A model generated the notes under the pieces. That model worked only from the letters and a program-made list of their open reading frames with translations, was not told the DNA's origin and made no database searches. A stretch of DNA of 64,000 nucleotides from Psychroserpens ponticola (GTDB lineage: Bacteria; Bacteroidota; Bacteroidia; Flavobacteriales; Flavobacteriaceae), in the NCBI RefSeq assembly GCF_023556315.2, contig NZ_CP116221.1:2863001-2927000 (forward strand), given 5' to 3'. Each line of letters opens with the position of its first letter. Within the stretch, counting starts at the first letter, position 1. A program made the translations under genes and the position numbers. Of the stretch, positions 39,066 through 46,805 are shown in pieces.

Positions 39066-39521
39066 ATGAAACGAGCAATATTCCCAGGTTCTTTTGATCC
39101 TATAACTCTAGGTCACTACGATATTATAAAAAGAGGTATTAAACTTTTTGATGAAGTTATAGTTGCCATAGGCATCAATTCTGAAAAAAAATATATGTTT
39201 TCTCTTGAAGACAGAAAACGTTTTATAGAAGATGCATTTAAAGACCATAGAAAAGTTAAAGTAGTTACTTATGAAGGTTTAACCATCGATTTTTGCAAAG
39301 ACATTGATGCGCAGTTTATTTTGAGAGGATTAAGAAATCCTGCCGACTTTGAATTCGAAAAAGCCATAGCACACACCAATAGAAAACTCTCAAAGATAGA
39401 AACTGTATTTTTATTAACTGCTGCAAAAACATCCTATATTTCATCATCTATTGTGAGAGATGTTATTAGAAATAATGGCGATTACACGGTCTTAGTTCCT
39501 GAGAGTGTAAAAATTAAATAA
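39066..39521 (+). CDS. coaD: Pantetheine-phosphate adenylyltransferase
   Basis: 151 residues. It makes dephospho-CoA from 4'-phosphopantetheine and ATP, the penultimate step of CoA synthesis. The nucleotidyltransferase motifs are PGSFDPITLGHYDIIKRG (TxGH form of HIGH, residues 6-23), LRGLRNPADFEFEKAIAHTNRKL and the ISSSIVRDV loop. Length and motifs are typical. The 3' end overlaps the response-regulator gene tail to tail by 8 nt. Confidence 0.97.
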   Translation: MKRAIFPGSFDPITLGHYDIIKRGIKLFDEVIVAIGINSEKKYMFSLEDRKRFIEDAFKDHRKVKVVTYEGLTIDFCKDIDAQFILRGLRNPADFEFEKAIAHTNRKLSKIETVFLLTAAKTSYISSSIVRDVIRNNGDYTVLVPESVKIK

Positions 39522-40164
39522 GGTTGTTTCTCTTGGCTTTCTGAACGGCCTCAAGTTTATTATGCACCTGTAGTTTTCGATAAATATTTTCGATATGTTT
39601 TCTGACCGTTCCTGTTGAAAGAATTAGGTTTTCAGCAATTTGCACATAATTCAATCCTTTACTCAGATGCTCTAAAACTTCGGTTTCACGTTTGGTTAAT
39701 TTTATATCTTCTTTGTCTTTTTCATTTTCAATACTCATTGGGTTTCGGAGTAGTTTCAATGTTTTTAAAGCAATTGAAGGATTCATAGCTGCTCCTCCAT
39801 TTAACGTTTCTACAATGCCATCATGAAGATCTTTTGCATTAATTTCCTTAAGCAAATAACCATCTGCACCAGCTTTTATGGCATTAAATATATTTTCATC
39901 ATTATCAAATACAGTAAGCATTATGATTTTAATATGAGGATACTTCTGTTTGATAATTCCTGTAGCTTCAATACCATTAAGCACTGGCATTTCAATATCC
40001 ATTAAAATCAAATCTATATTGTGATTATCTTCAATTTGAGTTAGCAAATCTGAGCCATTCATAGCTGTGATTTTAATAGTAAACTCATCAAAAAAAGAAA
40101 GTTTTTCTTTTACCGTTTTTATTAGAAATGTATTGTCGTCTACGATGCCAATTTTAATACTCAT
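39514..40164 (-). CDS. NarL/FixJ-type response regulator
   Basis: 216 residues. The receiver domain (about 3-120) has the acidic pair near D9-D10, the phospho-acceptor D56 in LILMDIEMP and the switch T/K residues (LTVFDND, LLKEINAKD). The LuxR-type DNA-binding domain (about 150-216, KLTKRETEVLEHLSKGLNYVQIAENL) ends in a GTVRKHIENIYRKL recognition helix. It is downstream of two histidine kinases of the matching HisKA_3 type, 81 nt after the nearer. An 18-bp palindrome lies 50-67 nt before its start, suggesting autoregulation. Confidence 0.95.
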   Translation of the reverse strand: MSIKIGIVDDNTFLIKTVKEKLSFFDEFTIKITAMNGSDLLTQIEDNHNIDLILMDIEMPVLNGIEATGIIKQKYPHIKIIMLTVFDNDENIFNAIKAGADGYLLKEINAKDLHDGIVETLNGGAAMNPSIALKTLKLLRNPMSIENEKDKEDIKLTKRETEVLEHLSKGLNYVQIAENLILSTGTVRKHIENIYRKLQVHNKLEAVQKAKRNNLI

Positions 40165-40213
40165 ATGCTTAGATTTTCAGAATAAAAAGTTACAAAATTC
40201 TCTGTGGATTGCT

Positions 40214-40231
40214 ATACGTCATTTGTCGTAT
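40214..40231. promoter_or_regulatory. 18-bp palindrome upstream of the response regulator
   Basis: ATACGTCATTTGTCGTAT. The half-sites ATACGnCA and TGnCGTAT are exact inverted copies. It lies 50 nt before the regulator ATG. The related site at 46788-46805 matches at 15 of 18 positions. NarL-type regulators bind inverted repeats of this size, so this is the best candidate operator of the regulator encoded here. Confidence 0.55.
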
Positions 40232-40245
40232 TTCAAGAATACTAA

Positions 40246-42117
40246 TTAAACTGTAATTGTAATCGTTGTTCCTTGATTTAGTTTAGACAAGATGATAAGC
40301 TCTGCTTTAATTTCTTGAGTTCGTTTTTTCATATTATTAATCCCATTACCCAATTGTGTGTGTTCTAAAACAAACCCTTTTCCATCATCTGTAACATCTA
40401 CTTTTATTTGTTGGTCATTACAATTAAAATCTATTGTAATATGTTTTGCTTTAGAATATTTAATTGAATTATTAATGGCTTCTTGAATAATTCGATACAA
40501 ATTCATTCCTTGTAAAGAGCTTAATTTAAAGCGATCAATGTCTGAAATATTTGAATTAAATTCAAACTTAATGTTCTCAGTAGCCAAATCGGCTTTATCT
40601 ATAAAATTAGAAATTCGTGATTGTAAATCTTCTAAAGTAATTGCATTTTTATTCATTGCCCAAATGGTATCGCGCAATTCATAAATAGTTGTTGTTGTAA
40701 ACTCACTAATATTTTTAAGTTTATTTGAAAGTTTCTCAGGGATTTTAAATCCGTATTTGAGATTATCTAAAGAAGAGATAATAAACGTGAGCTGTGCACC
40801 AATATTATCATGTAAATCTCTAGAAATTCTTAACCTCTGTTCTTGCAACCTATTTTGAGTTTCAATTTTAACCAAGGCATCTTTGAGTTCATTTTCTTTT
40901 TGAAGTTGCCTGTTTTTCAATCGTTGTTGGCTATAAAACAAATATCCAAGCAATGTTAATACAGCTGCCAAAACACCAAGTCCTAATAGTTGCGTATTTT
41001 TTTCGTTTAGGCTTAAATTTTGTTCCGCTAAATCAGCACGTTGTGATAAAATTTCTTTCTCTTTCTTTTCCGTTTGATATTCAATTTCTAGCTCCGCAAT
41101 TTTCTCATTGGTTGCAATATTCAGCAAGCTGTCTCTAAAAACAACCATCTCTTTATAATAATTAAGAGCTGTTTTTGTATCGTTTTTAGCTTCGTAATAT
41201 CTTGAGTAATTATCTAATGCGACTTCAATATCTACAGCGATCTTAGAATTTTCAGCAAAATACATTGCGCTATCTATGTATGTTTTTGTTTCTTTAAGTC
41301 TTCCGTTTTCAATAAGCACATTAGCCAAATTATTATAGCTTGCAGAAATGCCAGCCATGTCTCCTATTGACTTCTCTATAGCCAAAGACTTTCTAAAATA
41401 TACAAGTGCAGAATCAATTTCGTTCATATAATAAAATACAGCACCTACATTATTGACAGATTCGGCAATGCCTTTTTTATCATCAAGTGTTTCTTCAATC
41501 TTTAATGAGTATTTAAAATAATCAAGCGCCTGTTCTAAATCACCATCATTAGCATAAATAATTGCGATATTATTATACACTTCAGATATACCTTTTTTAT
41601 TTTCAATGGTTTCAAAAATAGCCTTAGCCTTAAGATGATACTCGATGGCTTTAGTATTAATCCCATTATAGCTATACACTAATCCAATGCTATTAAATGT
41701 CGTTGCTATTTCACTCTTCATTTGCTTGGCTTGATAAATATCTAAGGCTTTTAAATAGTACCTTAAAGCTTCATCATATTTAGCCATGTTTCTGTTTACA
41801 ACACCTATATTATTGTAAGCAGACGCTTTCAATATAGAATCATTTGTAAGTAAAGCTTCAGATGATAATTGCTTGGCTTTCTCAAAATCGCCTAAGTCTC
41901 TGTAAACAATTCCTAAATTATTTTTTGATTGCGCTATCTGAAATTCCTTTTTATTTTTTTCAGAAATTTGAAGTGCTTTTTCTAAAATTAATACTGCTTT
42001 TTGAGGGTCATTTTTATATAATGACATCGCAGAATCATTTAGCTGTATAGGATCTTGTTGTGCAAATACCGTTGATTGACAAAAAACAAACAGAAATAGA
42101 AAAACGAGATTTTTCAT
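40246..42117 (-). CDS. TPR-containing sensor histidine kinase (HisKA_3), copy 1
   Basis: 623 residues. A signal peptide (LVFLFLFVFCQSTVFAQ) leads to a periplasmic region of about seven tetratricopeptide repeats (40-335, for example YNNIGVVNRNMAKYDEALRYYLKALDIY). A coiled coil (335-375) enters one transmembrane helix (377-396). The cytoplasmic kinase follows: the phospho-accepting H436 in LRISRDLHDNIGAQL (DHp of HisKA_3 type) and the GHKL ATPase domain (VDVTDDGKGF, GNGINNMKKR). It belongs with the regulator downstream. A second kinase with nearly the same kinase half lies 49 nt upstream on the same strand, so this pair arose by tandem duplication. Confidence 0.93.
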   Translation of the reverse strand: MKNLVFLFLFVFCQSTVFAQQDPIQLNDSAMSLYKNDPQKAVLILEKALQISEKNKKEFQIAQSKNNLGIVYRDLGDFEKAKQLSSEALLTNDSILKASAYNNIGVVNRNMAKYDEALRYYLKALDIYQAKQMKSEIATTFNSIGLVYSYNGINTKAIEYHLKAKAIFETIENKKGISEVYNNIAIIYANDGDLEQALDYFKYSLKIEETLDDKKGIAESVNNVGAVFYYMNEIDSALVYFRKSLAIEKSIGDMAGISASYNNLANVLIENGRLKETKTYIDSAMYFAENSKIAVDIEVALDNYSRYYEAKNDTKTALNYYKEMVVFRDSLLNIATNEKIAELEIEYQTEKKEKEILSQRADLAEQNLSLNEKNTQLLGLGVLAAVLTLLGYLFYSQQRLKNRQLQKENELKDALVKIETQNRLQEQRLRISRDLHDNIGAQLTFIISSLDNLKYGFKIPEKLSNKLKNISEFTTTTIYELRDTIWAMNKNAITLEDLQSRISNFIDKADLATENIKFEFNSNISDIDRFKLSSLQGMNLYRIIQEAINNSIKYSKAKHITIDFNCNDQQIKVDVTDDGKGFVLEHTQLGNGINNMKKRTQEIKAELIILSKLNQGTTITITV

Positions 42118-42166
42118 GGATTAGTTGATTAACAGAAAAAAAGATACAAATTTTCAATTTATACAC

Positions 42167-44110
42167 CTAAACACGAAGAACAACCTGAGTGCCTTTATTG
42201 TTTTCTGATGCCACAGTCAGCTCACCTCCTATATTGTTAGCGCGCTTGCTCATATTAGTTAAACCACTTCCTTTTTCTACAGAATCTAAATCAAATCCTT
42301 TACCATTATCTGAAATAGTAATTTTCAGCTGATCTTTAAACTGTTCAATACCAACATTAATCTTAGTCGAAGAAGCGTGTTTTAAACTGTTATGTATTGC
42401 TTCTTGAATGATTCGGTGAATGTTCATTCCTTCTACTGAAGTTAATGTTTTTTGTTGATTTACACTATCATGAACAACAAAAGAGAACTTAGTATTATCA
42501 TCATACAAATGTGCTTTATCAATGTAATTGGAAATGCGTGTTTGTAAATCCTCAAAAGTAACTTCATTCTTATTCATTGCCCAAATGGTATCTCGCAATT
42601 CATAAATAGTTTCAGAAGTAAACTCGCTTATTTTGTTAAGTTTTGTTGTGAGTTTTTCATCTTTAATATCAAAGCCATATTTTAAATTATCTATAGACGA
42701 AATGATAAAAGTGAGTTGTGCACCAATATTATCATGTAAATCTCTCGAAATCCTCAAACGTTGTTCTTGCAAACGGTTTTGAGTTTCAATTTTCACAAGT
42801 GCGTCTTTCAGTTCATTTTCTTTTTGAAGTTGCTTATTTTTTAATTTTTGTTGGTTAAAAAACAAATAACCTATGAGTCCAAAAATGAAAGCCAAGCCTA
42901 TGAGTCCATATAGCTGATAATTTTTTTTCTGAATAGTTAATTTTTGTTCAGCCAATTCAGCACGTTGAATTAAAATCTCTCTTTCTTTTTTTTCTGTTTC
43001 ATATTTTACCTCCAAATCGGCAACAGCTTGTGCATTTTGTTCAGAAAAGATTGAATCTTTTAAAGCAACAAACATACTAGTGTATTCTCTAGCCTTTTTA
43101 AAATTACCCAACATATAATTACTTTCGGCAGCATGTAGATTTAAATCTGCAGAATTAGCTTCTAACTGTGGGAATTTTTTAATAACATCAAACCCTTTAT
43201 TTGCGTAAATTAACGCAGTTTTGGGATTATTCATTTGGTTATAAAGCGATACCATATTGGAATATGTTGGTACTAGTCCATTTTCACCTTGCTCAAAACC
43301 TTCAGGTCTGTCCAATACTTTTAAGTAAGAATCGAGTGCTAAATCTAAATCCCCTTTTTCATTATACGCATTGGCAAGATTATCAAGTAACTTGTAATAA
43401 TCCATAAGGTTATTTGAACGCTTAGCAACGACAATTCCTTCATTATAAATTTTTATGGCCTCATCGACGCGACCTAAATCTTTTAAATTAATTCCGATGT
43501 TATTGTAAGAAGCGACTTGATCGGTTTCTAGATTATATTCTTGTCGAATTTCAAGCGCCTTTTCATGATATTCTAAGGCCTTTTCACTAAGGTTCATTTC
43601 TTGGTAGATTAACCCAATATTATTTAAATATATGTGGCTTTGACGCTCACTGCCATAAGTGTCGTTAAATTTTAGAGCATCAAAGAAATATCGTAAAGCG
43701 TCATCAAATTCACTTCTATTCCAATGAAACATTCCCAAGTTATTGACACACATGACTTCTATATCCTTAAAATTATGATCTCTACTTAATTTTAATGCTT
43801 TAGAAAAATAAAAATTTGCTGAATCAGACTGCCCAGTAACATCCATATAAATACCATGCGTATTTGTAAGTTCTGTTAATCCAAAATTAAAATCTGCTTG
43901 ATTAGCAAGATCTTTTCCTTCTTTAATAACTTGAATGGCTTTATCTGTATCATTAAAGATATAACTGAATGCAATTTTATTCAACATTCTAATCTTTGTG
44001 GAATCATTTTTTTTTGCTCTCGCAACAGTTAATAAGCTGTCTAAATTCTGTGAAAAAGAAAACGTTGAGAATAAAAAAACTAGTAGAATTAATATATGTT
44101 TAGATTTCAT
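42167..44110 (-). CDS. TPR-containing sensor histidine kinase (HisKA_3), copy 2
   Basis: 647 residues from the ATG at 44110 (MKSKHILILLVFLFSTFSFSQ signal peptide). The architecture is as in copy 1: periplasmic TPRs (about 60-350), coiled coil, one helix (401-418), H459 in RLRISRDLHDNIGAQL and a GHKL domain (ISDNGKGFDLD, GSGLTNMSKRANNIGG). The stretch from the helix through the DHp domain (QLQKENELKDALVKIETQNR onward) is almost identical to copy 1, while the TPRs differ; the sensed signal therefore probably differs. The frame is open 62 codons further upstream, but that part holds a promoter and a terminator-like hairpin, so it is leader, not protein. Confidence 0.92.
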   Translation of the reverse strand: MKSKHILILLVFLFSTFSFSQNLDSLLTVARAKKNDSTKIRMLNKIAFSYIFNDTDKAIQVIKEGKDLANQADFNFGLTELTNTHGIYMDVTGQSDSANFYFSKALKLSRDHNFKDIEVMCVNNLGMFHWNRSEFDDALRYFFDALKFNDTYGSERQSHIYLNNIGLIYQEMNLSEKALEYHEKALEIRQEYNLETDQVASYNNIGINLKDLGRVDEAIKIYNEGIVVAKRSNNLMDYYKLLDNLANAYNEKGDLDLALDSYLKVLDRPEGFEQGENGLVPTYSNMVSLYNQMNNPKTALIYANKGFDVIKKFPQLEANSADLNLHAAESNYMLGNFKKAREYTSMFVALKDSIFSEQNAQAVADLEVKYETEKKEREILIQRAELAEQKLTIQKKNYQLYGLIGLAFIFGLIGYLFFNQQKLKNKQLQKENELKDALVKIETQNRLQEQRLRISRDLHDNIGAQLTFIISSIDNLKYGFDIKDEKLTTKLNKISEFTSETIYELRDTIWAMNKNEVTFEDLQTRISNYIDKAHLYDDNTKFSFVVHDSVNQQKTLTSVEGMNIHRIIQEAIHNSLKHASSTKINVGIEQFKDQLKITISDNGKGFDLDSVEKGSGLTNMSKRANNIGGELTVASENNKGTQVVLRV

Positions 44111-44120
44111 ATTACGACAC

Positions 44121-44179
44121 AAAAAAAGCATCAGAATTAATAAGCCCTTTTGGACAAATAAATTAGCTGACGCTTTTTT
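44121..44179 (-). terminator. Terminator-like hairpin in the leader of kinase copy 2
   Basis: On the minus strand AAAAAAGCGTCAG (44179-44167) pairs with CTGATGCTTTTTT (44134-44122), one pair being G-U, around a 32-nt loop, followed by a U-run that ends 11 nt before the ATG. On the plus strand one pair becomes an A-C mismatch, which points to the minus strand as the functional one. It looks like an attenuator or the end of a leader RNA. Confidence 0.5.
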
Positions 44180-44266
44180 AAAAAATTGATTAATAGCAAG
44201 ACGAATATATAACATAATTACAATGGTGTATCTTTTTTTCGACAAGTGGCAATTAAAAAAGATTAA

Positions 44267-44288
44267 GCGTAATCCTACAAAATTACGC
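44267..44288. promoter_or_regulatory. Inverted repeat GCGTAAT-N8-ATTACGC over the kinase promoter
   Basis: Perfect 7-bp half-sites covering the -7 box at 44278-44285. A protein bound here would block transcription of kinase copy 2. The sequence differs from the 18-bp palindrome at 40214 and 46788. Confidence 0.4.
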
Positions 44289-44307
44289 CCAATCATAATC
44301 TCAACAA
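44278..44307 (-). promoter_or_regulatory. Promoter of kinase copy 2 (TTG, 19 nt, TAATTTTG)
   Basis: On the minus strand TTG (44307-44305), 19 nt, then TAATTTTG (44285-44278). Transcription would begin near 44271, so the mRNA has a leader of about 160 nt before ATG 44110. It lies directly downstream of the beta-propeller gene stop codon's upstream side (6 nt from 44314). Confidence 0.55.
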
Positions 44308-44313
44308 CAAGAT

Positions 44314-46167
44314 TTAATTATTAAGATTGTATGTATAAATAGTCTTGTCATTAGCCTTATAGTAAAGATAACCTCCAAATTCATCTACTTGATATTCTGG
44401 TTTTTTATCCTTTAATATAATCTCTTTTTCTACAGAGCCTTTATCTTTATTCACTTTCACTAATCCAATTCCATCCTCAAATTTAGTTAGAATAAACTGA
44501 GCATTTTGAGTTGCAGAAGTTGCTTTAAAACGTTTTAACATTTCTGCTACAGAAGCTCCAGCTGCTGAAGACATACCAGCAGATAAATTATTTAAACGTT
44601 CTCCTCTAGCAGTGTATTGGCCAATTCTATTTCGTTCATGCATATTAGCTCCATATGACGCTGATGCTGATGCAGTTGCAGCTGCCACTGCTGTAACTCC
44701 TGCTAAAATCGCTCCAAATGCACTTTTACCAGGTGCTCTATGATATTCATGCCAAATGGTTTTGCCTTGCCAATCTAAAAGCATCATATTTTGATCTGAC
44801 GCTAATAAAACACCTTCTTCTCTTACTTCAACAGATGTTGGATCCTCTTTACCTTCAAAATCAACTTCAGTAAGTAATTCTGAAGTTCCAGAACTAGCAT
44901 CAATACTATACAGTTTTTCATCTGCAGTAATTAAATACCTGTCATTTTTTTTGTCAAAATCAGAACTAACAACATCAGCTCTTTTAAATTTCAATGGCTT
45001 TTTCCATACTTGATCACCTGTTTCAAGATTAACAATGTTAGCATCTTCAGATGTAATGTAAATTAATCCTTGTGGTGTTGTTGCCATCGTCAGGATATTT
45101 TCTCCTGTTTTTAGAGGTTTTTTGAAAAGTGTTTTTCCTTCATACGAAATCTTATTAATTCCACCTTCTTGTATTCCAAAGAGAATACCATCATCCATAA
45201 TATAAAAATGCTGAACATAGCCTTTCGTTTTAGGTGCTTTGTCCCATAGATCGTCACCAGTTGCTGCACTTAACATTGTTATTTTTGATTCTGATGCTGC
45301 TGCAAAAGTTCCGCTTCCACCAGTAACATCACTAACAACTGCTAGTCCTTGAGGCAAAATTTGAAAATTTGAAACACTTCCTTTCACTTTACGTTCATCT
45401 GACCAAGCTTCAGATCCATTTGCGTTAATCTTATAAATCTTAGTATTCTTTTTATTAGAAGTCGAAGCAAATGCATAAATGTTCTTTTCAGTTTCATCTG
45501 CAACCATCCAACCAATATTTTTTAAATCATTCTCCCAAAGCACATTACCAGAAGTCATATCGATTTTCATTAGACCTTTAGTTGTTGGAATAATGACTCC
45601 ATCAGATAAAACAAGTGGTGTTCCCATGGCTTGTCTAGACCCTTTAAATTTATAAAAACTAATCTGCTCACCTGTGTTTAAATCGTAGATTGCTAAGGCT
45701 TGTGCATATTTTTCATTAGCTCTACGTTGACCGCTGACAATTAATTTATTTGCTGGCATAAGCACTTGCGACATACCAATAGCTTTCCAACCATTTTTTT
45801 CAGTACTAAATAGTACTTTTCCTGACATATAATCTATGACTGCACTTTTAGTCTGTAAACCTCCAAATCCTGTTTGACCAACAACGACATAAGGGGCTTT
45901 TGGAATAAAATTTAACTCTTCAGGTTTTACACGTCCATAATCTGTAAAATTAAAAAGAAGATCATTAGTCCCTGGCTTAATACCAACTAATCCATCGTTG
46001 GTTGCCACTACCACTGTTCCTCCCTCAGTAATGGTCATTTCATTAATCTTAGCTCCAAGTTGATAATTATGATCTGGAGTTTCTGCTTTTTGAGCAAATA
46101 GTGAAGTTGCATTCAAAAAGAATGCAACTAACACTAAGCTCTTAAATTGAATTAATAGCGTTTTCAT
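44314..46167 (-). CDS. Secreted PQQ-like beta-propeller protein with alanine-rich insertion
   Basis: 617 residues with a signal peptide (LVLVAFFLNATSLFAQ). About 35-475 contain propeller blades of the PQQ-like repeat (ATNDGLVGIKPGTNDLLF, VLWENDLKN, GDDLWDKAPKT, GDQVWKKPLK), the fold of BamB and quinoprotein dehydrogenases, but no catalytic or PQQ-binding residues are evident. Residues about 479-545 break the pattern with a glycine/alanine-rich stretch (FGAILAGVTAVAAATASASAS) followed by an arginine-containing helix. The last 70 residues return to blade-like strands. It starts 11 nt after the stop of the preceding lipoprotein gene, so both are one operon preceded by the 18-bp palindrome. Confidence 0.82.
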   Translation of the reverse strand: MKTLLIQFKSLVLVAFFLNATSLFAQKAETPDHNYQLGAKINEMTITEGGTVVVATNDGLVGIKPGTNDLLFNFTDYGRVKPEELNFIPKAPYVVVGQTGFGGLQTKSAVIDYMSGKVLFSTEKNGWKAIGMSQVLMPANKLIVSGQRRANEKYAQALAIYDLNTGEQISFYKFKGSRQAMGTPLVLSDGVIIPTTKGLMKIDMTSGNVLWENDLKNIGWMVADETEKNIYAFASTSNKKNTKIYKINANGSEAWSDERKVKGSVSNFQILPQGLAVVSDVTGGSGTFAAASESKITMLSAATGDDLWDKAPKTKGYVQHFYIMDDGILFGIQEGGINKISYEGKTLFKKPLKTGENILTMATTPQGLIYITSEDANIVNLETGDQVWKKPLKFKRADVVSSDFDKKNDRYLITADEKLYSIDASSGTSELLTEVDFEGKEDPTSVEVREEGVLLASDQNMMLLDWQGKTIWHEYHRAPGKSAFGAILAGVTAVAAATASASASYGANMHERNRIGQYTARGERLNNLSAGMSSAAGASVAEMLKRFKATSATQNAQFILTKFEDGIGLVKVNKDKGSVEKEIILKDKKPEYQVDEFGGYLYYKANDKTIYTYNLNN

Positions 46168-46178
46168 AGAAATACTAT

Positions 46179-46727
46179 TTAATTAACAACTTGCTTGTCT
46201 AAGTTGAAAGACCCATTAGTAATGGTTTTTAGAGATTGATCTCCACCAACATTTTTACACGTAAAATTGAAAGTCCCTTTTACTTTAGAATCTGTTACAC
46301 TAGTAACTACAATTTCTCCAACTTCAGTATCATCATAAGGTGCTTGCCAAATTTCTGTAGTAGAATTTTGTGGATTGTTAAGATCAACATCAGTTACTGT
46401 GTAAGATGCAGAGTTAGCAATATTTGCTCCTCCTCCAATTGGATAAGTGCCTTCTCCGTTAAAATCGAGAACTGTAAATGAAAATGCTTTTCCGCTACTA
46501 TTTGAAGCGATAATAATAAGGCTTTGACCATTATTAGCAACTGTTGCTGTTGATGAAATCGCCATAGATTGGTAACTATTACCATTTACTTTTGCCACTA
46601 ATACTCCTGAACCGGCTCCTCCACCACTTCCTCCTCCATCTCCACTATCGTCACTACTTGAACAAGATGTTAATGTTAATGCGGTTAATGTCATGACTAA
46701 AATCATGAAGTTTTTAAAATGTCTCAT
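46179..46727 (-). CDS. DUF6252-type lipoprotein
   Basis: 182 residues. A lipoprotein signal (MTLTALTLTSC, cysteine about residue 22) is followed by a Ser/Asp/Gly linker (SSSDDSGDGGGSGGG) and one beta-rich domain (VLVAKVNGNSYQSMAISSTA ... KVKGTFNFTCKNV, ITNGSFNL). It resembles the Bacteroidota lipoprotein family I know as DUF6252. The function is unknown. It is the first gene of an operon with the beta-propeller protein, and has the 18-bp palindrome 61-78 nt before its start. Confidence 0.75.
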   Translation of the reverse strand: MRHFKNFMILVMTLTALTLTSCSSSDDSGDGGGSGGGAGSGVLVAKVNGNSYQSMAISSTATVANNGQSLIIIASNSSGKAFSFTVLDFNGEGTYPIGGGANIANSASYTVTDVDLNNPQNSTTEIWQAPYDDTEVGEIVVTSVTDSKVKGTFNFTCKNVGGDQSLKTITNGSFNLDKQVVN

Positions 46728-46787
46728 TGTTGATTGTTTTTGAGGTTAATAATGACACAAATTTGCTGTAAAATACAAAGGCATACA

Positions 46788-46805
46788 ATACGACATATGC
46801 CGTAT
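46788..46805. promoter_or_regulatory. 18-bp palindrome upstream of the lipoprotein-propeller operon
   Basis: ATACGACATATGCCGTAT, a near-perfect inverted repeat with one mismatched pair. It matches the site before the response regulator at 15 of 18 positions and lies at a similar distance from the start codon (61 versus 50 nt). Confidence 0.55.

Follow-up and report, generated by a model that had tools for sequence, protein, structure and literature searches.

The closest known system to the locus described below is FimS/FimR of Porphyromonas gingivalis, in which FimS has TPRs in the periplasmic sensor domain (PMC11053733) and FimR, a LuxR-type-class activator, binds the mfa1 promoter directly (PMC1974823). 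The NarL-type regulator GacA activates through an 18-bp upstream activating sequence, TGTAAG-N6-CTTACA, with sites at about -75 and -196 (PMC4950607). PhoPR of Riemerella anatipestifer is a flavobacterial two-component system mapped by DAP-seq, with a self-control site and the motif core TTTAACA (PMC9603813). The locus analysed in this work lies in a 64,000-nucleotide stretch of the Psychroserpens ponticola genome (the window; contig NZ_CP116221.1, positions 2,863,001 to 2,927,000) and encodes a NarL-type response regulator, two sensor kinases (HK1 and HK2), a lipoprotein-like protein and an exported beta-propeller-type protein. Similar 18-bp palindromes precede the regulator and the lipoprotein genes. 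With a probability of roughly 0.88, the palindrome is the operator of the local regulator, which would activate its own gene, the lipoprotein-propeller unit and unlinked genes of exported proteins. Flavobacteriaceae have many two-component regulators of this type, yet these are hardly studied; in the open-access literature searched, neither an operator for such a Flavobacteriaceae regulator nor a description of this site or of a matching regulon was found.

The likeness to FimS/FimR comprises the Bacteroidota host, the TPR kinase, the LuxR-type-class regulator and the exported surface-protein genes. The NCBIfam FimS model (NF053520) was the best match of both kinases, with 120.2 and 86.5 bits, which are far below its cut-off of 600. 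No fimbrillin family was detected among the 30 targets selected for the Pfam scan, and no palindrome is mentioned in PMC1974823 on FimR (term count 0). Because the kinases score so far below the model cut-off and the targets scanned include nothing fimbrial, the system was not assigned to FimS/FimR. With the NarL, VraR, LiaR and DesR envelope systems, the locus shares a regulator of receiver and GerE domains and HisKA_3 kinases, whereas the operator sequence, the TPR sensors and the targets are different. No orthologue of the regulator was found among the NCBIfam equivalogs, the best match being NarL with 120.7 bits (cut-off 250). The features in common with GacA are the NarL-type regulator, the 18-bp palindrome and the activation, which is suggested here by position; in addition, the sites of a paralogous regulator precede tandem putative small RNAs. 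In contrast to GacA, the half-site is another one, the position is about -43.5 and the main targets are exported proteins. PhoPR, likewise a two-component system, belongs to the same order and has a self-control site, but its TTTAACA core is unrelated to the palindrome. Judged from its domains and matches, the system is a two-component regulator of the known NarL/FixJ kind with a putative operator that was not found described in the open-access literature searched.

The palindromes of the window are the following.

40214..40231, strand not applicable: palindrome between the HK1 and response-regulator genes, before the latter; exact ATACGnCAnnTGnCGTAT match, putative operator
46788..46805, strand not applicable: palindrome before the lipoprotein gene; exact ATACGnCAnnTGnCGTAT match, putative operator of the lipoprotein-propeller unit

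Both were found exactly where the initial annotation had placed them, and its count of 15 identical positions out of 18 was reproduced, the mismatched positions being 6, 10 and 13. The half-sites are perfect, as it had claimed: the named consensus positions are fully palindromic. With the n positions included, the self-complementarity is 14/18 and 16/18 for the two palindromes. The distances to the start codon are similar as well; only the counts of 50 and 61 nt had to be corrected, to 49 nt for the regulator, whose ATG is at 40164, and 60 nt for the lipoprotein, whose ATG is at 46727.

In the P. ponticola genome, a single contig of 4,029,301 bases, ATACGnCAnnTGnCGTAT matched exactly at 2 places, both of them the window palindromes; if bases are taken as independent and in the proportions of the window, 0.012 matches are expected. 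Allowing up to 2 mismatches resulted in 17 places, four with one mismatch and eleven with two, versus 8 for the reversed control pattern. The initial annotation had pointed to random hits in coding DNA as a matter to be checked. Of the six places that differ from the pattern at no more than one position, five turned out to be intergenic, 35-63 nt 5' of a start codon, and the sixth is within a Crp-like gene. The two-mismatch places, 10 of 11 being within genes, differed from this class (Fisher p=0.005) and were discarded as noise.

The distribution of the palindrome follows that of the regulator within the genus. Among 22 genus relatives, a regulator orthologue (83-94% identity) was present in 15 and absent from 7, one of which has a broken copy. 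At up to one mismatch, 2-6 sites were determined in each of 15 carriers, whereas the 7 non-carriers had 0 (five genomes) or 1 (two genomes, G001 and G021); the 15-carrier scan includes P. ponticola itself, and the sixteenth carrier, G037, stands outside it. In G001 (L314 2484-2935), GSCFA is directly beside coaD, the whole cluster is gone and a one-mismatch palindrome with a promoter-like tail remains. In G021 (L082 7642-7919), regulator remnants are beside a one-mismatch palindrome and the rest of the cluster is lost.

The presence of the palindrome upstream of regulator orthologues, a check proposed in the initial annotation, was established for 14 of the 15 genus loci (up to 2 mismatches, at about 50 nt; the exception is G017) and, with a matrix, for 46 of the 80 named loci introduced below. 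The lipoprotein gene is preceded by a palindrome in the window and in 14/14 further genus clusters (0-1 mismatch, at about 60 nt). The intergenic region that separates xerD from an outer-membrane-protein gene contains a site in 10/16 genus carriers and 0/7 non-carriers (p=0.0075); without G037, the count is 9/15 carriers.

The comparison was extended to 299 sampled genomes of the family. Carriers (77 genomes) were defined by a full-length regulator match at E≤4.2e-70, plus one truncated copy of 79%, and 8 genomes with only weaker matches were scored as non-carriers. Exact sites were present in 31/77 carriers versus 4/222 non-carriers (Fisher p=6e-17, with species not independent and relatedness uncorrected), and the tracking with the regulator anticipated in the initial annotation thus extends over the family. 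The numbers of exact sites were 49 in carriers and 4 in non-carriers, three of the latter four being within open frames, while the reversed control gave 1 match versus 53. Together, the comparisons show that site and regulator depend on each other across species.

The same distribution bears on the identity of the binding protein. A regulator gene 3' of a site does not necessarily encode its binder, and the palindrome could be the operator of an unlinked regulator, such as the NarL-type paralogue at 43.4 kb of the genome, the local regulator being only a target. The presumed sites of the paralogue do have the same half-site, ATACG/CGTAT, and the same promoter spacing. However, the genus genomes without the local regulator keep the paralogue and its sites but lose the nCAnnTGn sites, and the paralogue sites differ in their core, which is of the TAGnnCTA or TAACGTTA type. 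Moreover, the local regulator is the sole DNA-binding protein of the conserved cluster, both in the window and in the genus clusters. An unlinked binder is hence considered very unlikely.

A broader set, referred to as the named loci, consisted of the best 80 of 560 relatives. At up to one mismatch, 66 sites were found in these loci, whereas 100 shuffled palindromes averaged 0.26 sites and never gave more than 2. A matrix fitted on the 80 loci detected 160 sites with scores above 14, 152 of them at 20-120 nt before a frame and 2 within frames. The median gaps were 60 nt for the lipoprotein (59 sites), 49 nt for the regulator (46), 56 nt for the propeller (12) and 52 nt for other genes (35), and a site was located before a regulator or a lipoprotein/propeller gene in 72/80 loci. 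With a genus matrix, derived from 21 genus sites and tested on the other loci, sites were detected before 37/53 lipoprotein, 34/75 regulator, 11/42 propeller and 20/664 other genes; none was found before HK1 (0/57), HK2 (0/41), GSCFA (0/55) or coaD (0/20). The column-shuffled genus matrices gave on average ≤0.35 sites per gene class.

In 246 genomes of the order, relatives at E≤1e-42 were detected in the families labelled f7, f5 and f14. In f7, where the regulator is 51-55% identical, a site precedes the regulator in 9 of 11 loci (of 14 f7 genomes with a match). The f14 genome has two exact sites with promoter spacing before genes of signal-sequence proteins. The initial view that the palindrome is regulatory, belongs with the local regulator and marks the regulator and lipoprotein-propeller promoters is supported by the tracking and matrix comparisons of sequences. 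A co-change of recognition helix and core was also considered: the helix SPSTVRKH occurred with 6/6 sites of a changed fourth base and with 1/41 others. It was rejected as evidence, since descent is a confounder here; moreover, a text anchor had missed 20 of the 67 loci, which were dropped.

The distance between the palindrome and the promoter elements was determined with offsets counted from the first palindrome base in thinned sets of promoters, AnnTTT being defined as A at 41 and TTT at 44-46. AnnTTT at offset 41 was present in 23/23 lipoprotein promoters (mean at other offsets, 0.25), 28/40 regulator promoters (0.59), 7/10 propeller promoters (0.11) and 18/29 promoters of other genes (0.61). 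The same offset was observed in 7/9 regulator sites of f7. TTG at offset 17 was detected in 19/23 lipoprotein and 10/10 propeller promoters, and in 5/40 regulator and 6/29 other promoters. In Flavobacterium psychrophilum, a TAnnTTTG box is located at -12 to -5 (PMC9723704). Since offsets 40-47 were placed at -12 to -5 after that work, the palindrome is predicted to occupy -52 to -35 with its centre at -43.5, the start site being predicted from the -7 box. The boxes of the window are as follows.

46758..46765, minus strand: predicted -7 box CAAATTTG of the lipoprotein promoter; predicted +1 at 46753
40184..40191, minus strand: weak predicted -7 box AACTTTTT of the regulator promoter, with an identical offset; predicted +1 at 40179

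The predicted leaders are 26 nt (lipoprotein) and 15 nt (regulator), and the TTG at -33 of the lipoprotein promoter overlaps the 3' end of the palindrome. In class II promoters, an activator contacting the polymerase is centred near -41.5 to -43.5. The predicted centre of -43.5 suits an activator of this kind. A sigma-70-type promoter scan was uninformative here, with 43 promoters found versus 37.2 in shuffles. A -7 box read by eye 13 nt past the regulator palindrome was rejected, as the alignment puts the conserved box at offset 40-47.

The same geometry was used to weigh repression against activation. Since the palindrome reaches the -33 element, a protein bound to it could also block the polymerase, and the site might accordingly serve a repressor. 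Yet repressor sites tolerate varied positions, while the -7 box spacing is rigid here and the TTG is weak or missing in many regulator and other promoters, which gives them an activator-dependent look; the blocking role is regarded as improbable. As for RNA hairpins or terminators, mobile repeats or chance, the palindrome could fold as an RNA hairpin, and the lipoprotein site overlaps one match of a loose terminator scan. Nevertheless, the site is 5' of the promoter box at a fixed distance, which places it outside the transcript predicted for its gene, the flanks differ, and there are only 2 exact copies in the genome. Chance is excluded by the shuffled palindromes, the family tracking (31/77 versus 4/222) and the genus-matrix test, and this whole group of explanations is extremely improbable.

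Several observations weigh against the palindrome being an operator of the local regulator. No exact site was found in 46/77 family carriers, because the core varies between genera. In 34/80 named loci, no matrix site above 14 precedes the regulator, and self-control through its own site is therefore not universal. No site was detected by the regulator in two f5 loci or in the f14 genome. The 80-locus matrix was fitted on the same loci, whereas the shuffled-palindrome, genus-matrix and f7 results are free of this circularity; the sites of related species are not independent. In the window alone, 4 matches at up to 3 mismatches were not significant, as 6/100 shuffles reached 4. The regulator -7 box AACTTTTT of the window is weak, and the xerD promoters fit the -7 spacing in only two loci among those listed.

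With the local regulator as the binder, the following course of events is proposed. One or both kinases would sense a signal with their exported TPR domain and pass it on by phosphotransfer to D56 of the regulator, a dimer of which would bind the 18-bp palindrome, as the pairing of site and regulator and the symmetry suggest. The bound site would be at about -52 to -35 of a Bacteroidota-type sigma-A promoter (TTG, then nAnnTTTG), from where the regulator would recruit the polymerase. Activation is proposed because of this predicted promoter position of the palindrome. The activated targets would be the regulator's own gene, resulting in positive feedback, the lipoprotein-propeller unit and, as a third group, unlinked genes, mostly of exported proteins, some with tails of the type IX secretion system (T9SS) and propeller-type repeats. 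As a guess, the exported lipoprotein or propeller might feed back on the TPR sensors.

The initial annotation had called the regulon self-contained. This was not borne out, because two unlinked T9SS-type secreted proteins share the site and the promoter. Paralogue sites aside, the site-plus-promoter pattern in the genome was found before the regulator (1 mismatch) and lipoprotein genes, and also before the genes of a DUF2341 protein and an FG-GAP protein, both with a T9SS tail and both unlinked. A further site of this genome separates xerD from an outer-membrane-protein gene, and other species contribute more targets. Over all loci, 30/42 further promoter-flagged targets have a signal-sequence-like start versus 149/979 other frames (p=4e-15; the signal-sequence rule was home-made, and the 42 target rows are partly homologous). 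The alignments and counts show a fixed promoter geometry and an enrichment of the site before exported-protein genes.

For the Pfam scan, 30 targets were selected from 95 target rows. A T9SS tail was present in 7 of them and no family at E≤0.01 in 11. The families detected comprise propeller-type repeats (FG-GAP, NHL, BNR and DUF5122), MORN repeats and a papain-type protease, and there was a weak match to an outer-membrane-protein barrel. In divergent gene pairs, the spacing mostly aims at the exported gene, the exceptions being two xerD loci and L303. In G319, the xerD-gap site is 58 nt before the outer-membrane-protein gene and lacks the -7 spacing. As regulator, site, promoter geometry and targets are given together, the regulon should be readable from sequence in dozens of genera, and TPR-sensor kinases appear linked to how exported and T9SS-type proteins are controlled.

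The genes of the cluster, all five on the minus strand, and a hairpin between two of them are listed below.

46179..46727, minus strand: lipoprotein-like protein, 182 aa; DUF6252 (Pfam E=1.6e-11), lipoprotein-like N-terminus
44314..46167, minus strand: exported beta-propeller-type protein, 617 aa; PQQ_2 (E=6e-17), PQQ_2/BamB-type
44261..44294, minus strand: terminator-like hairpin of 15 pairs followed by T6, in the propeller-HK2 gap (terminator scan)
42167..44110, minus strand: sensor kinase HK2; signal sequence, TPRs, transmembrane segment, HisKA_3, HATPase_c
40246..42117, minus strand: sensor kinase HK1; signal sequence, TPRs, transmembrane segment, HisKA_3, HATPase_c
39514..40164, minus strand: NarL-type response regulator, 216 aa; Response_reg (E=1.1e-23), GerE (E=1.2e-16)

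The gene calls of the initial annotation hold in the Pfam search: a receiver and GerE regulator, two HisKA_3/HATPase_c kinases with TPRs, a DUF6252 lipoprotein-like protein and a PQQ_2/BamB-type propeller. The receiver and GerE domains of the regulator were above the Pfam cut-offs. D56, T84 and K106 were read from the sequence as receiver residues of the regulator, and STGTVRKHIENIYRKL as its recognition helix region. VraR, ChrA, NarL and DesR were among the eight PDB chains matched by the regulator at E≤1e-20, and the genome contains 28 regulator-like matches at E≤0.001. The lipoprotein-like protein reached 37 bits with NCBIfam Riean_0653_fam, below the cut-off of 57. The AlphaFold2 model of the propeller protein (pLDDT 81) is nearly all beta with a helical insert at about 481-555; Foldseek gave only generic propeller/WD40 matches with low TM-scores, and no PDB sequence relative was found at E≤0.01.

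The lipoprotein and propeller genes are probably a transcription unit of their own, because the 15-pair hairpin with T6 divides the propeller gene from HK2, and the regulator probably has a separate operator, located between HK1 and the regulator gene. The terminator scan of the whole region gave 3 such sites, not above the shuffles (mean 3.0). The weight of the hairpin at 44261..44294 rests on its stem length, since the region total equals the shuffle mean.

TPR families cover the N-terminal part of both kinases, and the signal sequence and the later transmembrane segment were read by eye. The HK2 open frame extends to 44296; the start at 44110 was taken since the signal sequence begins there. 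HK1 and HK2 (40246-44110) resemble a tandem pair whose catalytic parts are very similar. That two kinases are enclosed by the palindromes, as stated in the initial annotation, is correct for the window and not constant elsewhere, several species of the genus keeping only one. At least one HisKA_3 and HATPase_c kinase was found in each of 14 further genus clusters. An HK2-like kinase alone is present in G002, G004, G007, G008 and G009, and an HK1-like one alone in G014 and G018. G017 has one diverged kinase, and no propeller frame was seen in G015. The putative operator before the regulator is kept in most genus members with a reduced kinase or gene set.

The paralogous NarL-type regulator is located outside the window, at 43.36-43.99 kb of the genome (43,358-43,990; region 43,360-44,550, L318 3358-4550). 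On its 3' side, ATACGTAGnnCTACGTAT palindromes were found at 43,982, 44,119 and 44,309. The promoter geometry is the same at all three, and each is followed by a short unit that ends in a terminator-like hairpin. The three terminator-ended units are probably small RNAs in a Gac/Rsm-like layout. With the curated Rfam thresholds, only tRNAs were detected in three such loci, and nothing in the small-RNA array itself. Tandem paralogue sites occur in 2-4 copies in 22/23 genus genomes (homologues in L319-L331); G037 has one diverged site and no paralogue in the frame list of that region. In the 14 loci examined, with 2-4 copies each, 38 units of three sequence classes were recognized. Two-sided changes in predicted pairs were counted as 9/22, 6/19 and 8/14 per class, mostly in terminator stems and with no null model.

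The paralogue-type promoter pattern was present in 24/149 family genomes versus 0 for the reversed control among the matches listed. In G014 (L322 2101-2544), all three paralogue palindromes share the changed core ATACGTAAAGTTACGTAT, and the recognition helix of the paralogue is divergent, ISVRTVEKHK compared to mostly ISDRTVEKHK; the core change hits all copies at once (3/3). A family-wide code, for which the chances are about even, would be that NarL-type paralogues of Flavobacteriales share the half-site ATACG/CGTAT and the -43.5 geometry and are discriminated by the middle eight bases, nCAnnTGn standing for the autoregulated exported propeller/T9SS regulon and TAGnnCTA for 2-4 tandem small RNAs, which would be a Gac/Rsm-like layout in Bacteroidota. 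If true, one half-site with different cores among neighbouring paralogues would make other orphan regulators decodable. An extra paralogue-type palindrome (genome 581,226-581,303; L332 2057-2074) looks promoter-like on both sides, with an old-yellow-enzyme-like frame on one side and a short lipoprotein-like frame on the other.

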